DNA of 41,326 nucleotides from Clostridia bacterium (GTDB taxonomy: Bacteria > Bacillota > Clostridia > Oscillospirales > Acutalibacteraceae), in the NCBI GenBank assembly GCA_024404115.1, contig JAKSQM010000013.1, forward strand, positions 1-41,326, in the 5' to 3' direction. This document shows, piece by piece, positions 25,922-41,326 of this stretch. The notes beneath the pieces are model-generated. The model saw only the letters and a list, made by a program, of their open reading frames with translations, was not told the origin of the DNA and ran no database searches. The position numbers were made by a program, and so were the translations under genes. How positions within the stretch are numbered: the stretch's first letter is position 1; every line of letters starts with the position of its first letter.

Positions 25922-26293
25922 ATGAAAATTCAGGAATCCGCAGAAAATTATCTTGAAACCATTCTTATTTTAAAAAACAGAAACGGCAAAGTCCGTTCCG
26001 TTGATATTGCCAATGAGATGCACTTTTCAAAGCCAAGCGTCAGCGTTGCTATGAAAAATCTCAGAGAAAACGGCTACATTTCAATGGATAAAGAGGGCAA
26101 TATTGAACTGCTCCCTGACGGTGAAGATATTGCGTCAAAAATTTATGAACGCCATATTCTCCTTACAAAATATCTTGTTGCCCTTGGTGTCAGCCCCGAA
26201 ACTGCGGCAGAGGATGCCTGCCGAATTGAGCATGACATAAGCATTGAAAGCTTTGAGGCAATCAAGGAACACACTATCAAAATGGCAAAATAA
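25922..26293 (+). CDS. DtxR/MntR-family metal-dependent repressor
   Basis: A 123-residue repressor without the C-terminal SH3-like domain, so of the short kind. The winged helix is at about 5-65 (IANEMHFSKPSVSVAMKNLR is its recognition region) and the dimerisation/metal domain at 70-120. Metal ligands appear as E76 and H78 in YERHIL and C100, E103, H104 in DACRIEH. A Cys at the first of these positions is typical of the iron-type DtxR/IdeR site, while MntR has Glu, so iron is the likelier co-repressor (inference). ATG at 25922 has AGGTGAT ahead of it; the upstream in-frame start at 25889 would sit in the -10 box. The hydrolase gene starts 13 bp downstream and is probably cotranscribed. Confidence 0.88.
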   Translation: MKIQESAENYLETILILKNRNGKVRSVDIANEMHFSKPSVSVAMKNLRENGYISMDKEGNIELLPDGEDIASKIYERHILLTKYLVALGVSPETAAEDACRIEHDISIESFEAIKEHTIKMAK

Positions 26294-26306
26294 TACGGAG
26301 GTCAAA

Positions 26307-28157
26307 ATGAAAATCAGCAAAAAAATTCTCAGCGTTTTAATTGCGATTGTGATGCTTGCGCTTACCTGCACAGTTGCATTCGCAAAAGAAAAATGCACCT
26401 GCGGCAACACACCCGTTATTCTGGTGTCTGGCTTCGGTGCAACCACCCTTGTGCGTGTTAATGATAACGGCAGTGAAGATGTGGTTTTTCCGCCCACACT
26501 TGATGTAATCAAATCTGCTGTTACAGATAACCTTAATAAAATTGATAAGGATGCGCCCCTCGAATTCCCTGCATCTGTTGTTACACAGATTCTCGACCCA
26601 ATCACAATGAATCCCGACGGCACATCATATTACAATATTAAACCCATTTATTCATCTGTTGAAGATACTTCACTTGAGGGATTCAGAAAAAATGACGCTC
26701 TCAAATATGTTCCCTATACAGGCTCAAAATTCCTTGATATGGAATGTATCGGTGAAAAAATCGGTGATGACCATGTTTTCAACTTCCTCTTTGACTGGCG
26801 AATCCCCAGCGACGAGGTTGCAGACCAGCTTCAGCAGTATATTATGGATGTTCTCCAATACACAGGTCATGAAAAAGCAAGCATCTATTGTTTAAGTCAG
26901 GGCAGTGTGTGCGTTGCTCAGTATCTTTATAAGTATGCTGATAAAGAGCTTCTTGAAAATGTTGTTTTCAATGACCCCATTCTTGAGGGTTCAGATTTCA
27001 TCACAGATATTGTCAGCGGCAGAACAGGCTACAAGCTCACCTATGGCGAAATCATAAAGCTTGTTGAGAATATTTTACATACAGAGATTGAAATTTCTGA
27101 TATCGCTTCAATTATCCCAGAGGGCATTGACAATATCGTTGGTATGGGTGCAACACAGATTGTTATTCCCATGGTTAAGGATTCACCTGCATACCTTGAA
27201 ATGGTAACAAAGAAAGACTACGAGGATGTTCTCAAAAATTATTACACTGCCGAGGGCAACGAAAAGCTTATTGAAAAAGTCAACAAAACAAGAAACGGCT
27301 TTATGGCAGATATTGAGGGCACCTTGCGCAATGCTCAGAAGCACAACATTGATGTTTCAATCGTTTCAAGCTCAGGCAAAGCACTTGTAACAGGCACTGG
27401 CGTTAATTCAGACTCAATCGTTAATACAGAGTATTCCTGCGGTGCTTACTGCGCACCTTGGGGCGAAACCTTCCCAGAAGATTATGTTCAGAAAAAGGAC
27501 ATCGGTCATGACTGCGTTTCACCCGACAGAACAGTTGACCTTTCCTGCGGATACCTGCCCGAAAAAACATGGATAATCAATGACCTTTTCCACGGTATGG
27601 TTGAGTGGGCGCCCAACTCACTTGCACTTGTTGAAAAGCTCCTTTATACACACGATTTAAAGGACGCTTGGAGCAGCAAGGAATTCCCCCAGTTTATGCA
27701 GAGTGATGACCCCACACAGAATGTTCAGGCAGTATTTGCAGACAGCAACAGCCTCAGCACCAAAACAGGCGGCAACGGCAAAATCCTCGTGAAGAATGTT
27801 GCATCAGAGGATATTCTTATTAACTCAATTTCAGTTGACGGCAATAAGAGCGGTCTGCCTTTCGTGCTTAAAGCAGGCGAAACCGCAGCCGTTTCAGTTG
27901 ACGCTTCAAAGGAGCATTACGGCACAATTTCTGTCAGCTACTCAAAGCTTGCAGGCGTTGGCAAAGAAACAGTTAAGGACTTTGGCTACTCTGTTAAGGA
28001 TAACTACAGCGGAATTGTTGTAAACCACGGTAAGGACGAAAACACCGCATCTGCGCTTAATAAAGTTTTCGGTATCGTCTGGAATTTCTTTAACAGGGCA
28101 ATCAGATATATTGCCGACCTTTTCGGCACACTTATTTCACAGATTAAAGGAGCATAA
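26307..28157 (+). CDS. Secreted lipase-like alpha/beta hydrolase (LCAT/PGAP1-like)
   Basis: A 616-residue exported hydrolase with a signal peptide (1-26, ending AFA). An LCAT-like opening VILVSGFGATTLV (38-50) is followed by FDWR at 162-165 and the nucleophile elbow IYCLSQGS with S197, where the usual G-H of GHSxG is replaced by C-L. A likely catalytic His is in TWIINDLFHGM. Residues about 490-590 look like an Ig-like beta domain, and the C-terminus ends in an aromatic amphipathic helix (WNFFNRAIRYIADLF). It is a divergent paralogue of the protein at 38290-39879, sharing FDWR/YDWR, the elbow, SPDR/SPDK and the TW-I-x-LxH block. The start at ATG 26307, behind CGGAGG, gives a proper signal peptide; the upstream in-frame start at 26244 overlaps dtxR. 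Acyl substrate unknown. Confidence 0.82.
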   Translation: MKISKKILSVLIAIVMLALTCTVAFAKEKCTCGNTPVILVSGFGATTLVRVNDNGSEDVVFPPTLDVIKSAVTDNLNKIDKDAPLEFPASVVTQILDPITMNPDGTSYYNIKPIYSSVEDTSLEGFRKNDALKYVPYTGSKFLDMECIGEKIGDDHVFNFLFDWRIPSDEVADQLQQYIMDVLQYTGHEKASIYCLSQGSVCVAQYLYKYADKELLENVVFNDPILEGSDFITDIVSGRTGYKLTYGEIIKLVENILHTEIEISDIASIIPEGIDNIVGMGATQIVIPMVKDSPAYLEMVTKKDYEDVLKNYYTAEGNEKLIEKVNKTRNGFMADIEGTLRNAQKHNIDVSIVSSSGKALVTGTGVNSDSIVNTEYSCGAYCAPWGETFPEDYVQKKDIGHDCVSPDRTVDLSCGYLPEKTWIINDLFHGMVEWAPNSLALVEKLLYTHDLKDAWSSKEFPQFMQSDDPTQNVQAVFADSNSLSTKTGGNGKILVKNVASEDILINSISVDGNKSGLPFVLKAGETAAVSVDASKEHYGTISVSYSKLAGVGKETVKDFGYSVKDNYSGIVVNHGKDENTASALNKVFGIVWNFFNRAIRYIADLFGTLISQIKGA

Positions 28158-36384: not shown

Positions 36385-36419
36385 AAAGCACTGTGCCTTA
36401 ACTGGTGCAGTGCTTTTTT
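36385..36419 (+). terminator. Terminator after argH
   Basis: AAAGCACTG and CAGTGCTTT form the stem, with an inner GCC/GGT region, followed by TTT. It begins 6 bp after the stop. Confidence 0.88.
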
Positions 36420-36487: not shown

Positions 36488-36516
36488 TTGACATTTTCAT
36501 ACATAAATGATATGAT
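36488..36516 (+). promoter_or_regulatory. Promoter of the GH3-hydrolase-lipoprotein operon
   Basis: TTGACA (36488-36493), 17 bp, TATGAT (36511-36516), 30 bp before the ATG. No other promoter is seen before the two downstream genes. Confidence 0.8.
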
Positions 36517-36546: not shown

Positions 36547-38286
36547 ATGCATTTTTCTGATATTGGTGTATTGCTTGGTGATGTTTCACGAGCAGAAATA
36601 AAACACTATACTAAAGACCCACTTAAAGCACAGAAAAAGGTGCTTAAAAAGATTATCCGCCGCAACAAAAACTGTGAGCTTGGCAAAAAGCTTAACTTAA
36701 AGGATGTTAAATCTATAGAAGATTATCAGCGTATCGTTCCTCTTTCAACATATGCAGACTATGAGCCTTATGTTGACAGAATGATAAATAACGGTGAAGA
36801 CAGAATTATGTTCTCTGGCAAAAATCTTCATTATGCTTCATCCTCAGGTTCAGTTGGCAAGCCAAAAATCCTCCCCAAGGGACTTAATGACCTTTGGAAG
36901 ATGCAGTGCCTCGGCTTCTCTGCAACAATTGCCACCGCGTATCATCATATGAAAGAGCGTGGAATCAGAATGAGCAATCAGGTAGGCCCTCTTGCGCTTA
37001 ACCTTTCTGGTCATAAGCTTAAAGACGGCAAGCAGTGCAACGGTGCAGGTCAGATTCCTCTTCGTTTCTTGAGAACTCTTATGCCTTTCTTCTGCACTTC
37101 TCCCATGTCGCTTCTTTATCCCAATCTTGAGGACAAGCTTGACACTTCATATCTCCACCTTCGTTTCTGCCTTGAAAATAAAAAGGTAAGCTACTTAGGC
37201 TCAATCGTTGTTACTCTTCTTACAACAATGTTTGATTATCTTGAAGAGAACTGGGAAATGATGTGTGATGACATCGAAAAAGGTATCATCAACCCCAATA
37301 TTGATATTCCCGATAATCTTCGTGCAAAATATGCAAAGAAATTCAAACCCAACCCCGAAAGAGCAAATGAGCTTCGTGCCATCTTTAAAGAGGGATTTGA
37401 CGAGCCTGTTGCTCCCAAAATCTGGCCTGGTCTCCAGTGGGCATACGGTATGATGGGTTCAAACCTTTCAGTTTATGTTGAAAAGCTCCGCAAGGTTATC
37501 GGCCCCAATGTTCCGATTCATAACATGGGTTATGCCGCAGCAGAGGGCTTCTTTGCCGCTCCCACAGAGCTTGATGTAAACGACTATGTTCTTCTTCCAT
37601 GGTGCCTTTTCTTCGAGTTCCTTCCAATTGAGGACCTTGAGGATTCAGCAGACGATACAGTTAAACCTCTTCTTATTAACGAGCTTGAGGTTGGCAAAAA
37701 CTATGAGATGATCGTTTCAAACTTCTCTGGTCTTTACAGATACAAAATTGAGGACGTTGTTCATGTTACAAGAATGTATAACAACACTCCCGAAATCGAG
37801 CTTCTTTTCAGACAGAATCTTTCAATGAATGTTGCCAATGAAAAGACAACAACTGATATGATTGATGCTGCTATTCAGAATGCCGTTAAAGAAATGGGTG
37901 TTGAATACCGTGGCTTCAGCTTCTATCCCGATTTCTCAACAAAGCCACCCCGCTACACTCTTCTTATTGAGCTTAAAGGCGGCGCACTTGACGAAGAGGG
38001 CAGACAGAAATTCATCGAAACAATCGACCATCAGTTTGATGAAATCAACGAAAAATACTATAAATATCGCCGTTGGGGTATGCTTAACAGACCCGAGGTT
38101 CTCTTCCTTGAAGAAAAAACCTATGTTGGCTATAATGATATGCTTGCCGCAAAAGGCGTCGTTCTTAATCAGATTAAACCCGTAACCGTTATTAACAGCG
38201 CAGAGAGAAAAGACTACTTCCTTTCACATGTTATTAACAAAGACTCTTCCGCTGTAACAGAATGGTTGGAGAGTAAGGAGAGTTAA
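36547..38286 (+). CDS. GH3 auxin-responsive-family acyl-adenylating enzyme
   Basis: A 579-residue cytoplasmic protein of the GH3 family, named after plant enzymes that adenylate acids such as indole-3-acetate or jasmonate and join them to amino acids. The ATP motif YASSSGSVGKPKIL is at 96-109; MGYAAAEGFF matches the second nucleotide region and YRYKIEDVVHV with IELLFRQNLSMN the third, and the C-terminal domain (about 430-570) is complete. Length is normal. The acyl and acceptor substrates in gut bacteria are unknown. The ATG has AAGGATGTGA upstream. It is the first of three tightly packed genes, only 3 bp before a secreted Cys hydrolase, so it may charge an acyl group that the partner transfers or removes outside (inference). 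Confidence 0.87.
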   Translation: MHFSDIGVLLGDVSRAEIKHYTKDPLKAQKKVLKKIIRRNKNCELGKKLNLKDVKSIEDYQRIVPLSTYADYEPYVDRMINNGEDRIMFSGKNLHYASSSGSVGKPKILPKGLNDLWKMQCLGFSATIATAYHHMKERGIRMSNQVGPLALNLSGHKLKDGKQCNGAGQIPLRFLRTLMPFFCTSPMSLLYPNLEDKLDTSYLHLRFCLENKKVSYLGSIVVTLLTTMFDYLEENWEMMCDDIEKGIINPNIDIPDNLRAKYAKKFKPNPERANELRAIFKEGFDEPVAPKIWPGLQWAYGMMGSNLSVYVEKLRKVIGPNVPIHNMGYAAAEGFFAAPTELDVNDYVLLPWCLFFEFLPIEDLEDSADDTVKPLLINELEVGKNYEMIVSNFSGLYRYKIEDVVHVTRMYNNTPEIELLFRQNLSMNVANEKTTTDMIDAAIQNAVKEMGVEYRGFSFYPDFSTKPPRYTLLIELKGGALDEEGRQKFIETIDHQFDEINEKYYKYRRWGMLNRPEVLFLEEKTYVGYNDMLAAKGVVLNQIKPVTVINSAERKDYFLSHVINKDSSAVTEWLESKES

Positions 38287-38289
38287 GCT

Positions 38290-39879
38290 GTGCGTAAAGT
38301 TGTAACAAAAATTGTTTCAGTTTTATTAAGTATAATTATTGCATTATCAGTTTTACCCGTTTGCTTTGCTCAGCAAAAAGAAAATATTCCGCTGATTTAT
38401 GTTTGCGGTCAGGGCGCAGAGCTTCGTGTTAAAGAAGAGGACGGCAGCGAAAGAAAAATTTATCCCTTAACTTTACCCGACGGATTTATTGAAGCAACTG
38501 TAAAGGAGAATCTTGGCATTTTTGCCAAGGCAGTTGTTACACAGCAGTGGGATGAATTTTGTGATGTTATTTATAATGTTGCTTCAGACCTTTACAGCGA
38601 AGTGAAGCTTGACGAAAACGGAAGACCTACAGATAATTCCAGACCTTGGTGGAACTGGAGAACTCAGGGCATCAGATCCCGTATAATCAAAGGCGCTCAC
38701 AGAGTAACTGCTTATGATTATTATTATGACTGGCGACTTGACCCATACGAAATCGCAGAGGATATGCACGATTATATCGAAGCCATCCTTGCCAAAACAG
38801 GCAAAACACAGGTTTCGCTTTGCGGCAGATGCTTAGGTGCGTGCATTATCACCGCTTATATGGAAAAATATGACGGCGAGTATGTCAGAGATCTTGTTTA
38901 TTACGCCAGCGCACTTGACGGCGCAACGCAGGTTACAAAGGCATTCTGCGGTGAGCTTTACATTGATGCAGACAGCGTTGAGAGATTCCTTTATGATTAT
39001 GATGTTTCAGCCGACCAGAATATCAATCAGCTTTTAAGAGCATTCGTTACTCTTTATAACGATACATACGGTCTTGATATTGCCTGCTGGAGCATAAATA
39101 ATGTGTATCCCAAAATTTATCTCAACATAGTCCCAAGGCTTATGGTGGATACGCTGGGTACATTCCCTGGCTACTGGAGCATGGTAAGCGATAATGATTA
39201 TGAAAAAGCCAAAGAAACTGTTTTCTATGGCGCAGATATGGAAAAGTATGAGCATTTCATCGAAATAATTGATAATTATCATTACAATGTTCAGTGCAAG
39301 GCTCACGACCTCTTAAAAGAATATGAAGCAAGAGGGATTACCGTTTCCAATATCGTTAAGTATGGCTATCAGACTTATCCTATAACTGCCGATGGCGATA
39401 TTCTTTCAGATGACATCTGCGATGTTTACAGTGCGTCAATGGGCGCAACAACCGCACCTGTTGCAGGTGAGTTTAACAAGAAATATCTTGCGGAAGCAGC
39501 CGAAAACGGAACAGATATTTTTATCTCACCCGATAAGCAGATAGACGCTTCAACCTGCCTTTTCCCTGAAAGAACATGGTTTATCAAAAACCTTGAGCAT
39601 AAGAATTTCCCCAATATTGTTGATAATCTTATTGACGAAATTCTCAGTAATGAGGATTACACAATTTTCTCAGATGAAAAATATCCGCAGTATCTTGTGT
39701 TTAATAACACAGAAGAGGGATTCTCACTTGTGCCAATGATTGATGAAAACAAGGGTACGGACGAAAAATATAAAGTGTCTTTCTTCAAGGCAATCGGCAA
39801 CTTCTTCAAATCACTTTATAATGTTATCAAAAATCTCATTCAGGCTAAAATAGACGAAAAGAAAGGAACTGTTCAGTAA
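38290..39879 (+). CDS. Exported alpha/beta hydrolase with Cys nucleophile
   Basis: A 529-residue protein with a signal peptide (1-27, cleavage near CFA). The fold matches the hydrolase at 26307-28157: an opening PLIYVCGQGAELRV, YYDWRLDP at 145-152, the nucleophile elbow LCGRCLGAC at 177-185, an SPDK region and a candidate His in TWFIKNLEH. The nucleophile position holds C181 in G-R-C-L-G, in place of serine. A G-x-C-x-G elbow is known from PHA synthases, which transfer acyl groups; that chemistry is an inference here. The end (FFKSLYNVIKNLI) is an amphipathic helix like that of its paralogue. GTG start at 38290 with AAGGAG 9 nt upstream, 3 bp after the GH3 stop. Its TAA overlaps the next ATG. 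Confidence 0.82.
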   Translation: MRKVVTKIVSVLLSIIIALSVLPVCFAQQKENIPLIYVCGQGAELRVKEEDGSERKIYPLTLPDGFIEATVKENLGIFAKAVVTQQWDEFCDVIYNVASDLYSEVKLDENGRPTDNSRPWWNWRTQGIRSRIIKGAHRVTAYDYYYDWRLDPYEIAEDMHDYIEAILAKTGKTQVSLCGRCLGACIITAYMEKYDGEYVRDLVYYASALDGATQVTKAFCGELYIDADSVERFLYDYDVSADQNINQLLRAFVTLYNDTYGLDIACWSINNVYPKIYLNIVPRLMVDTLGTFPGYWSMVSDNDYEKAKETVFYGADMEKYEHFIEIIDNYHYNVQCKAHDLLKEYEARGITVSNIVKYGYQTYPITADGDILSDDICDVYSASMGATTAPVAGEFNKKYLAEAAENGTDIFISPDKQIDASTCLFPERTWFIKNLEHKNFPNIVDNLIDEILSNEDYTIFSDEKYPQYLVFNNTEEGFSLVPMIDENKGTDEKYKVSFFKAIGNFFKSLYNVIKNLIQAKIDEKKGTVQ

Positions 39880-40868
39880 TGACAAACGGAAAAGTAAAGG
39901 CAACAATTCTTAAAAGCGTTTCCGCTTTGCTTTGCACTGCAATCCTTGCTTGCTCAGGCATAGCCAACACAAACAAAATCTGCGAAACAAAGCTTAAAAT
40001 AAACGGCGGTGCAAACAGCACTGTTAGCGAAAAAACTTCATCAGACGAAGTTAATGAGCAGTTTTTTGACGAAATAGCAGATGTTGAGGATAATAGCGAA
40101 GCTCCTGTTGACGAAGAAACAGAGTCAGCAGAGGAATACACTATTGATGACAGCAACGATTCCGCCCCTGCGCAGCAGGCAGGCGACAGCTCGTCATCCA
40201 CTTCCACCTCAAAGCCTGCTAAAGAAGAAAAGAAAAAAATCTCCCTTATCGGCGGACTTTCCAGCAATAATAAGGAAGAAGTTCTTGAATACTATAAGCT
40301 TGTTTCAAAGAAAAATGCAAATCTTCTTTTCACCAAAACACTCACATTTATTGATATGCGTGGCGGCAAAAATATGCCCCAGCGAATGATTGATATTTTC
40401 CTGCCCATCGCTCAGAAAGCACTGGATAAAAACACAGTAAATGATGAGCCGTACCCGGGCAAGCCCGATAAGATTCTGCCCTCTGACTGGCAGGCGGCAA
40501 AGGCTGTTAATGACGGAACATACACAACAATTTATGTTAAGGTTCAGCCGCAGACAGACGGCTATAACGGCAAAAAGTACGAAGGCTCATGCGGCAGGTC
40601 AATGTGTGTGCTTGACGGTATTGATCAGGCTCTTGCAGAGATGAACGCAGTTTCAGTTGATTTCAGCCAGACCAAAATGGTTGTCAATTATGTGAATCCC
40701 ATAATCAAGCTCAAGGTTAAGAACTCAACAGGCGAGCTTGTTAAGGGCGGATGTGAATGGAGCTACCGTACAAATCCTGAAATTGATTATATGGAAGCAA
40801 AGTTCTTAACATTCAAAATCCATATCGAAGCCGCAGGCGGAAATGTAGATTATTCAGTTAAATATTAA
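39879..40868 (+). CDS. Putative lipoprotein with acidic linker, function unknown
   Basis: A 329-residue exported protein. The N-terminus is basic and then hydrophobic, with a lipobox-like A-I-L-A-C around C25, so a lipid-anchored surface protein is likely; ordinary signal peptidase cleavage is the alternative. Residues about 40-120 are rich in Glu, Asp, Ser and Gln, a disordered spacer. The rest (about 125-329) is a compact domain with two central cysteines (SCGRSMC), a third further on (GGCEW), and a beta-rich end. No known family was recognised. It starts inside the stop of the hydrolase gene (TAATG), so it is translationally coupled, and GAAAGGA precedes. It may be a cell-wall partner or acceptor of the upstream acyl enzyme (inference). 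Confidence 0.75.
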   Translation: MTNGKVKATILKSVSALLCTAILACSGIANTNKICETKLKINGGANSTVSEKTSSDEVNEQFFDEIADVEDNSEAPVDEETESAEEYTIDDSNDSAPAQQAGDSSSSTSTSKPAKEEKKKISLIGGLSSNNKEEVLEYYKLVSKKNANLLFTKTLTFIDMRGGKNMPQRMIDIFLPIAQKALDKNTVNDEPYPGKPDKILPSDWQAAKAVNDGTYTTIYVKVQPQTDGYNGKKYEGSCGRSMCVLDGIDQALAEMNAVSVDFSQTKMVVNYVNPIIKLKVKNSTGELVKGGCEWSYRTNPEIDYMEAKFLTFKIHIEAAGGNVDYSVKY

Positions 40869-40872
40869 AATG

Positions 40873-40899
40873 AAAGCTGCCCTTTTCGGCAGCTTTTTT
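40873..40899 (+). terminator. Terminator of the GH3 operon
   Basis: AAAGCTGCC-cttttc-GGCAGCTTT followed by TTT, 4 bp after the stop. Confidence 0.93.
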
Positions 40900-40902
40900 G
40901 TT

Positions 40903-41326
40903 GCCTGCAAAAAGACTGAGGGATTGTCCTTGTAATGTCATTGCGAGGCGAAACTGTAGCTATCTATTATTATTGCACGCACCGAGTTTTCCGTCGCCCC
41001 TTGACAGGGGAGATGTCATCGTAGATGACAGAGGGGTAGAACCTAAAGTAATAAGTTGTAGTGAATAGTGAAAAAGTGGACGGCACACCGTAGGAGAAGG
41101 GACTTGCTTCTCCCGAACTGAATCAAAAAATATCGCACAAATCCACCTGAATCGCACAATAAAACGGCTCCCTCGTCAGAGGTAGCCATGAAAGCAAATT
41201 ACTAAAAGTCGGCAAGTTACTCAAATAATGGCACCAATCTTTCCCGTCGCCCCTTGACAGGGGCTTGCTCTTCCCGAACTGAATCAAAAAATATCGCACA
41301 AATCCACCTGAATCGCACAATAAAAC
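40903..41326. repeat. Intergenic repeat island 7 (runs off the window)
   Basis: No gene is supported. 40905-40935 matches the end of the CTCCCTTGTGTAAAGGGAG module (AAAAAGACTGAGGGATTGTC); 40936 is CATTGCGAGG; 40989-41045 is a complete CCCCTTGACAGGGG two-hairpin module; 41112-41165 and 41273-41326 are identical 54-bp segments. The second copy of CCCCTTGACAGGGG at about 41250 has lost its second hairpin and joins straight to the 54-bp segment. Confidence 0.8.
41112..41326. repeat. Perfect 54-bp direct repeat
   Basis: 41112-41165 and 41273-41326 read the same throughout (starting CCCGAACTGAATC, ending GCACAATAAAAC). The second copy reaches the window edge, so it may be longer. Perfect identity means a very recent duplication or ongoing conversion. 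Confidence 0.9.

Follow-up and report, generated by a model that had tools for sequence, protein, structure and literature searches.

In a 41,326-base contig of a Clostridia bacterium of the Acutalibacteraceae (JAKSQM010000013.1), referred to here in its full length as the window, a gene for a GH3-family enzyme and a gene for an exported alpha/beta-hydrolase-fold protein with a cysteine at its nucleophile elbow (HYD) form a pair that is real and recurrent, and we propose, with somewhat less than even confidence, that they encode two enzymes of one lipid pathway in which N-acylation in the cytoplasm is followed by O-acylation outside. The window is a complete contig, one of the 44 that make up a genome assembly of 2,429,029 bases with 83.8% completeness. 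Three consecutive open reading frames (ORFs) lie on its plus strand, GH3 at 36547-38286, HYD at 38290-39879 and LIP, encoding a membrane-anchored extracytoplasmic protein, at 39879-40868, with a gap of 3 bp between GH3 and HYD and an overlap within TAATG between HYD and LIP. They are preceded on the same strand by a sigma-70-type promoter-like site at 36488-36516 (TTGACA-17-TATGAT, with TG preceding the second hexamer and 11 of 12 consensus matches), which ranks best of 18 such sites in the window, shuffled sequences being expected to yield 10.5, and after them, at 40873-40900 (plus strand), come a hairpin and T run that resemble a terminator; these were read by eye, the scan listing the hairpin on the minus strand only. 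This arrangement, with its single strong promoter-like site, bears out the initial annotation of one coupled operon.

The first product, of 579 residues, was also rightly recognised as a GH3-family acyl-adenylating amide ligase. All three Pfam GH3 domains, PF03321, PF23571 and PF23572, are present in order with 235.1, 85.5 and 72.3 bits against a gathering threshold of 23.6, and residues 17-513 aligned with the plant GH3 enzyme JAR1 (5ech) at E 3.3e-48. Although JAR1 is distant (168 bits), it has in common with the window protein all three domains, the ATP-binding loop and the Y-R-x-x-D motif, and K433 aligns with the lysine of its D-K-N-T-E. The loop, S99-K105, is encoded at 36841-36861 (plus strand), and S99-S102, G104, K105, E333, Y397, R398, D403 and K433 are invariant across 21 GH3 homologues. 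The three full domains, the JAR1 alignment and the invariant motifs together make it very likely that the window GH3 is an active adenylating amide ligase. The model of the bacterial enzyme OlsH (NF052613) was matched by 21 of 21 GH3 rows at E <=0.001 (best 4.6e-27); the window GH3 scored 81.8 bits, under the equivalog cut-off of 620, and by this NCBI cut-off is not an OlsH.

HYD, a protein of 529 residues with a GTG start, begins with a putative signal peptide (residues 1-27; 38290-38370, plus strand, as are all HYD features given here), recognised by a hydrophobic N-terminus, a cleavage site after C-F-A read by eye and a helix at residues 2-25 in the structure model. Its elbow motif is G179-R-C181-L-G183, and the model places C181, the proposed nucleophile (codon 38830-38832), between strand 175-180 and helix 182-194; the residue is Cys in 42 of 42 aligned HYD rows. 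In the same alignment and model, C181 is followed in triad order by the proposed acid D374 (39409-39411; 37 Asp and 5 Glu among the 42 rows), which comes after strand 351-358, and by the proposed histidine H437 (39598-39600; invariant in 42 of 42), which is the His of TWFIKNLEH. The exported hydrolase with a Cys elbow and the triad position suggested for this histidine both withstood examination. The predicted fold is LCAT/LPLA2-like, and HYD resembles lysosomal phospholipase A2 (LPLA2, PLA2G15) and LCAT (PF02450) also in its nucleophile-acid-His order and its site outside the cytoplasm, whereas identity to them is 13-15%, the nucleophile is Ser there and Cys in HYD, and window HYD has no Pfam LCAT match. 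PF02450 was matched by 7 of the 42 rows at E <=0.01 and by one Ser paralogue of the same genome (25 against 21 bits). A C-terminal helix (residues 498-527; 39781-39870), hydrophobic and basic in the model and in the tails of 12 rows, lies outside the range aligned with LPLA2/LCAT and is a possible membrane contact.

Recurrence of the pair was followed in a first collection of loci, the best 80 of 192 relatives, whose titles point to Clostridia assembled from metagenomes, in many cases those of rumen or hindgut. We found that HYD adjoins GH3 in 42 of the 80 loci, downstream in 38 and solely upstream in 4, and that these 42 form 17 groups without a common flanking ORF family, of which six hold at least two loci, 17 being an upper count in which some single-locus groups are short contigs. 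On a GH3 tree built by a quick method, 14 changes suffice to explain the distribution of the pair, compared with 33.9 when labels are shuffled; the pairing is clustered, with repeated gain or loss. In a second genome set the pair was present in 16 of 20 fetched loci and in 17 of 20 GH3-positive genomes, own included; the two sets share several genomes, and their counts are not additive. When 60 genomes including our own were searched, all 20 with GH3 had a HYD match below E 1e-140 and none of the 40 others did, the cut having been set after the numbers were seen and the profile trained on GH3-linked HYDs. LIP, by contrast, follows HYD in only 7 of the 80 loci, in the window and probably also in genome G017, whose contigs C72 and C73 are broken inside HYD and were kept separate. 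Thus, the co-conservation initially supposed holds for the GH3-HYD pair, and the GH3-HYD-LIP trio as one conserved system was rejected.

The expected spread of the pair across unrelated Clostridia was not borne out either. At class level, 30 of 392 genomes, own included, had a GH3 match, and the pair was found in none of 20 loci fetched from 15 of them; it was not found outside one family. Among 297 order-level genomes, with up to four candidates scored in each, HYD was detected in 12 and was strong only in the window's family, while only G000 and G035, both within the 60-genome set, combine a GH3 score above 1000 bits with a HYD E-value below 1e-140; in nine other order-level genomes the GH3 relatives are more distant and no strong HYD accompanies them.

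HYD is a member of a large LCAT/LPLA2-like alpha/beta-hydrolase family in a 2.4 Mb genome, strong in one bacterial family only. Our genome has 17 HYD-like places by single-sequence search and 22 matches by profile, and eight of ten paralogues scanned lacked a Pfam family above cut-off (examples of the paralogues are window 26244-28157 and L214-L227). The first of these, outside the operon on the plus strand, is a Ser-type protein of 637 residues with 27% identity to HYD over 500 columns (E 9e-28). Elbows were read in 87 distinct proteins of the family, a non-random set made up of HYDs of GH3 loci, own-genome paralogues and 20 regions across the score range, and 68 have Cys and 19 Ser. In a tree of 86 rows (L085, Cys-type and cut at a contig end, was omitted for length), the 19 Ser rows and 67 Cys rows lie on opposite sides of a branch with support 99. 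The elbow is Cys in 43 of 44 GH3-adjacent rows; the single Ser exception (L128 4231-5757), with an A-H-S-E-G elbow, lies 244 bp before a GH3 that has a Cys-type HYD after it.

A system with the same two kinds of enzyme has been described in Singulisphaera acidiphila, where, according to PMC12493201 (2025), the GH3-like enzyme OlsH forms N-acyl ornithine and the alpha/beta-hydrolase OlsI O-acylates it. The same paper states that OlsH uses free fatty acids without coenzyme A (CoA) or acyl carrier protein (ACP), that bacterial GH3 enzymes are widespread, that gut Clostridia are a reported source of N-acyl amino acids and, as its authors see it, that homologues beyond planctomycetes may use other amino acids. 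Among the matches listed from the open-licence literature, this was the sole paper noticed on bacterial GH3 function, and OlsH, as far as noticed there, is the sole GH3 with an assigned bacterial function. OlsH/OlsI (NF052613, NF052614) is, like the window, an operon of a GH3-like ATP-dependent amide ligase and a protein of the alpha/beta-hydrolase superfamily, and its two-step N- then O-acylation serves as a working model for the window pair too. It differs in belonging to planctomycetes, whereas the window belongs to Bacillota, in having olsG between olsH and olsI in S. acidiphila, OlsG being absent from the window operon, and in its hydrolase: the OlsI model has 272 positions, whereas HYD, at 529 residues, carries a signal for export and is LCAT-like in its predicted fold. 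Window HYD did not match the OlsI model (cut-off 385 bits) at E <=1, nor was that model among the families of the 42 rows at E <=0.1, and its two weak matches in our genome are at places other than HYD. The view that the operon represents a pathway without known description stands in part, since the pair is not described among the literature matches listed, while PMC12493201 presents a GH3 plus alpha/beta-hydrolase acyltransferase operon with another hydrolase family. Compared with OlsH/OlsI, what is new is the other hydrolase family and the Cys nucleophile in a GH3 plus alpha/beta-hydrolase lipid pathway.

LPLA2, as described in PMC6027918, moves acyl groups from phospholipids onto N-acylated alcohols and acts as a phospholipase when water is the sole acceptor. 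This transfer and the two steps of OlsH/OlsI suggest the same two steps for the window pair. Cytoplasmic GH3 would adenylate a free acid, probably fatty or hydroxy-fatty, for coupling with an amino acid or amine, and the resulting N-acyl amino compound would move to the outer face of the membrane. There, a membrane lipid would donate an acyl group to Cys181 of exported HYD, which is probably seated on the membrane, and HYD would in turn acylate a hydroxyl on the GH3 product (less likely on some other envelope molecule); it would thus act as LPLA2 or LCAT does, with Cys replacing Ser, and yield an O-acylated N-acyl amino lipid. A membrane lipid is the probable donor because acyl-CoA and acyl-ACP should be out of reach for an enzyme outside the cytoplasm, and LIP may serve as an optional membrane-anchored partner. 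The initial suggestion that an acid is activated inside the cell and an acyl group transferred or released at the envelope is still the best reading and is strengthened by the predicted fold.

Several observations weigh against the proposed pathway. The substrates and activity of the pair are what we infer, and a modelled LCAT/LPLA2 fold would by itself be no proof of acyl transfer; moreover, Foldseek gives HYD low TM-scores against LPLA2/LCAT, in the range 0.30-0.39 when scaled by query length, and its sequence profile matched bacterial lipases in the PDB (best 1.2e-4) and not LCAT. Some alpha/beta hydrolases with a Cys nucleophile, such as dienelactone hydrolase, are purely hydrolytic. No exporter gene directly adjoins the window operon. 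Neither HYD nor C2, a membrane-anchored protein discussed below, is beside GH3 in 31 of the 80 loci (5 of which have <1.2 kb of contig downstream), and C2 is there instead in 7. Twenty-four Cys-type rows lie away from GH3, five of them second copies beside a GH3-adjacent HYD (L064, L081, L091, L145, L150). Finally, among the GH3-positive genomes without adjacency, G016, G032 and G035, the best HYD groups with the GH3-linked rows in G032 only; those of G016 and G035 lie in another Cys branch together with a HYD of GH3-negative G013, so that the co-occurrence is weaker than the E-value cut suggests.

The strongest rival, in our judgement unlikely, is acid salvage, in which exported HYD acts as a Cys-type phospholipase or lipase, releasing fatty acids from lipids of the host, the feed or microbes, and GH3 conjugates the imported acids with amino acids so that they are stored, detoxified or built into lipids. 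The use of free acids by OlsH (PMC12493201) and the phospholipase activity of LPLA2 towards water (PMC6027918) would suit it. So would the match of the HYD profile to lipases. A Cys nucleophile is usually unhelpful for plain hydrolysis, however, and the GH3-linked HYDs carry Cys while Ser paralogues are at hand for hydrolysis. Less probable still is that the GH3 product is an N-acyl amide released as a signal or surfactant, which HYD, as an extracellular amidase or esterase, degrades or trims. Making and breaking enzymes would likewise be conserved together, and PMC12493201 mentions N-acyl amino acids in gut Clostridia; the aminopeptidase-type matches that point the same way are weak (PF12146, best E 0.00063, and TIGR01250, best E 0.032, each in 2 of 42 rows), and the predicted HYD fold is that of ester-lipid enzymes.

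The G-x-C-x-G elbow, shared with the polyhydroxyalkanoate (PHA) synthase PhaC, raises the improbable alternative that HYD links acyl groups to a polymer or protein of the envelope, or polymerises them there, in the manner of a PHA synthase or in wall acylation, LIP being the acceptor or a helper. LIP does adjoin HYD in the seven loci given above, and the class II PHA synthase model matched 11 of 42 rows, but weakly (best E 0.0087; another synthase model 3 of 42, 0.015; TIGR01838 and TIGR01839 tested); window HYD, which unlike PhaC has an export signal, matched neither in an NCBIfam scan at E <=1, the PhaZ7 depolymerase model did better (30 of 42, best 5.3e-7), and most GH3-HYD pairs are without LIP. 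Chance adjacency in a genome so rich in HYD paralogues, by either search, we consider very improbable indeed, being strongly disfavoured by the recurrence of the pair across several unlike contexts and by the Cys elbow of nearly all GH3-adjacent HYDs.

A fixed partner enzyme offers a handle on what this Bacillota branch makes. If HYD is indeed a Cys-type LCAT/LPLA2 transacylase, the pair would give bacteria of ruminants and the hindgut a new route to amino lipids, would exemplify a natural switch between Ser and Cys nucleophiles inside a lipase family and could be a source of N-acyl amides that act on the host. The fullest version of the proposal, which we regard as doubtful, is that rumen and hindgut bacteria of Oscillospirales type independently built a GH3 amino-lipid pathway with an extracytoplasmic second acylation by a Cys LCAT/LPLA2-type transacylase using membrane phospholipid, giving undescribed O-acylated N-acyl amino lipids and switching the nucleophile within an expanded exported-lipase family.

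LIP has 329 residues, in which a disordered acidic linker (predicted local distance difference test score (pLDDT) <50 over most of residues 9-115) leads to a folded C-terminal domain (residues 120-329; 40236-40865, plus strand; pLDDT 65-97 per 10-residue block from residue 121). Of the lipobox, acidic spacer and unrecognised domain initially described, the latter two were upheld; the window's own lipobox (I-L-A-C) is weak, and a lipobox-like C-G site was seen by eye in the seven orthologues adjoining HYD. No Pfam or NCBIfam family scored above cut-off, no PDB sequence matched better than E 0.94, and no relative with known function was found in these three sources. In the loci examined, 12 of 53 LIP-like proteins have a HYD-like gene within 1.5 kb, GH3 not being found in the short stretches of two of these (L057, L226), and HYD is absent from the short flanks of a near homologue in our genome (L053) and of several in relatives. 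The orthologue at L139 3651-4578 turns to unrelated sequence near residue 235 at a contig end, which may reflect a frameshift, fusion or assembly fault. C2 precedes GH3 in seven loci without HYD (L153, L154, L156, L157, L158, L160, L161), which represent a second lineage, in tandem in three, and its relatedness to the LIP domain came out at 78% against 0.1-0.4% for shuffles. By sequence, the two domains may thus be related, and if so the anchored partner may be a recurring, optional companion of GH3.

Upstream of the operon lies an argininosuccinate lyase gene (Pfam), followed by a terminator-like hairpin at 36385-36416. The sequence ends about 460 bp 3' of LIP, and its last part, 40987-41326, contains a 68-nt and a 24-nt repeat, each in two copies 96% identical; the second 68-nt copy runs to the final base, so the assembly may have broken inside a dispersed repeat.

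At class level, GH3 neighbours include a pair of ATP-binding cassette (ABC) half-transporters (L194 2995-8180, by Pfam; L195 similar by look), an adenylation-condensation protein (L197) and a MatE protein (L211). In the window's clade, two ABC half-transporters lie 18 bp before GH3 (L093 1910-7282), so that two lineages of Clostridia distant from each other have such a pair next to GH3 (L093, L194). These neighbours, chosen by eye and uncounted, fit exported products. In one locus without HYD, the gene that starts 8 bp after GH3 (L109 7593-8795) encodes a DUF4474-domain protein whose N-terminus is hydrophobic. A second, divergent GH3 follows LIP at L131 9281-11882 and L136 9281-11932, in the order GH3-HYD-LIP-GH3, and tandem GH3 genes occur in L153, L154, L156, L194, L195, L197, L198 and L199.
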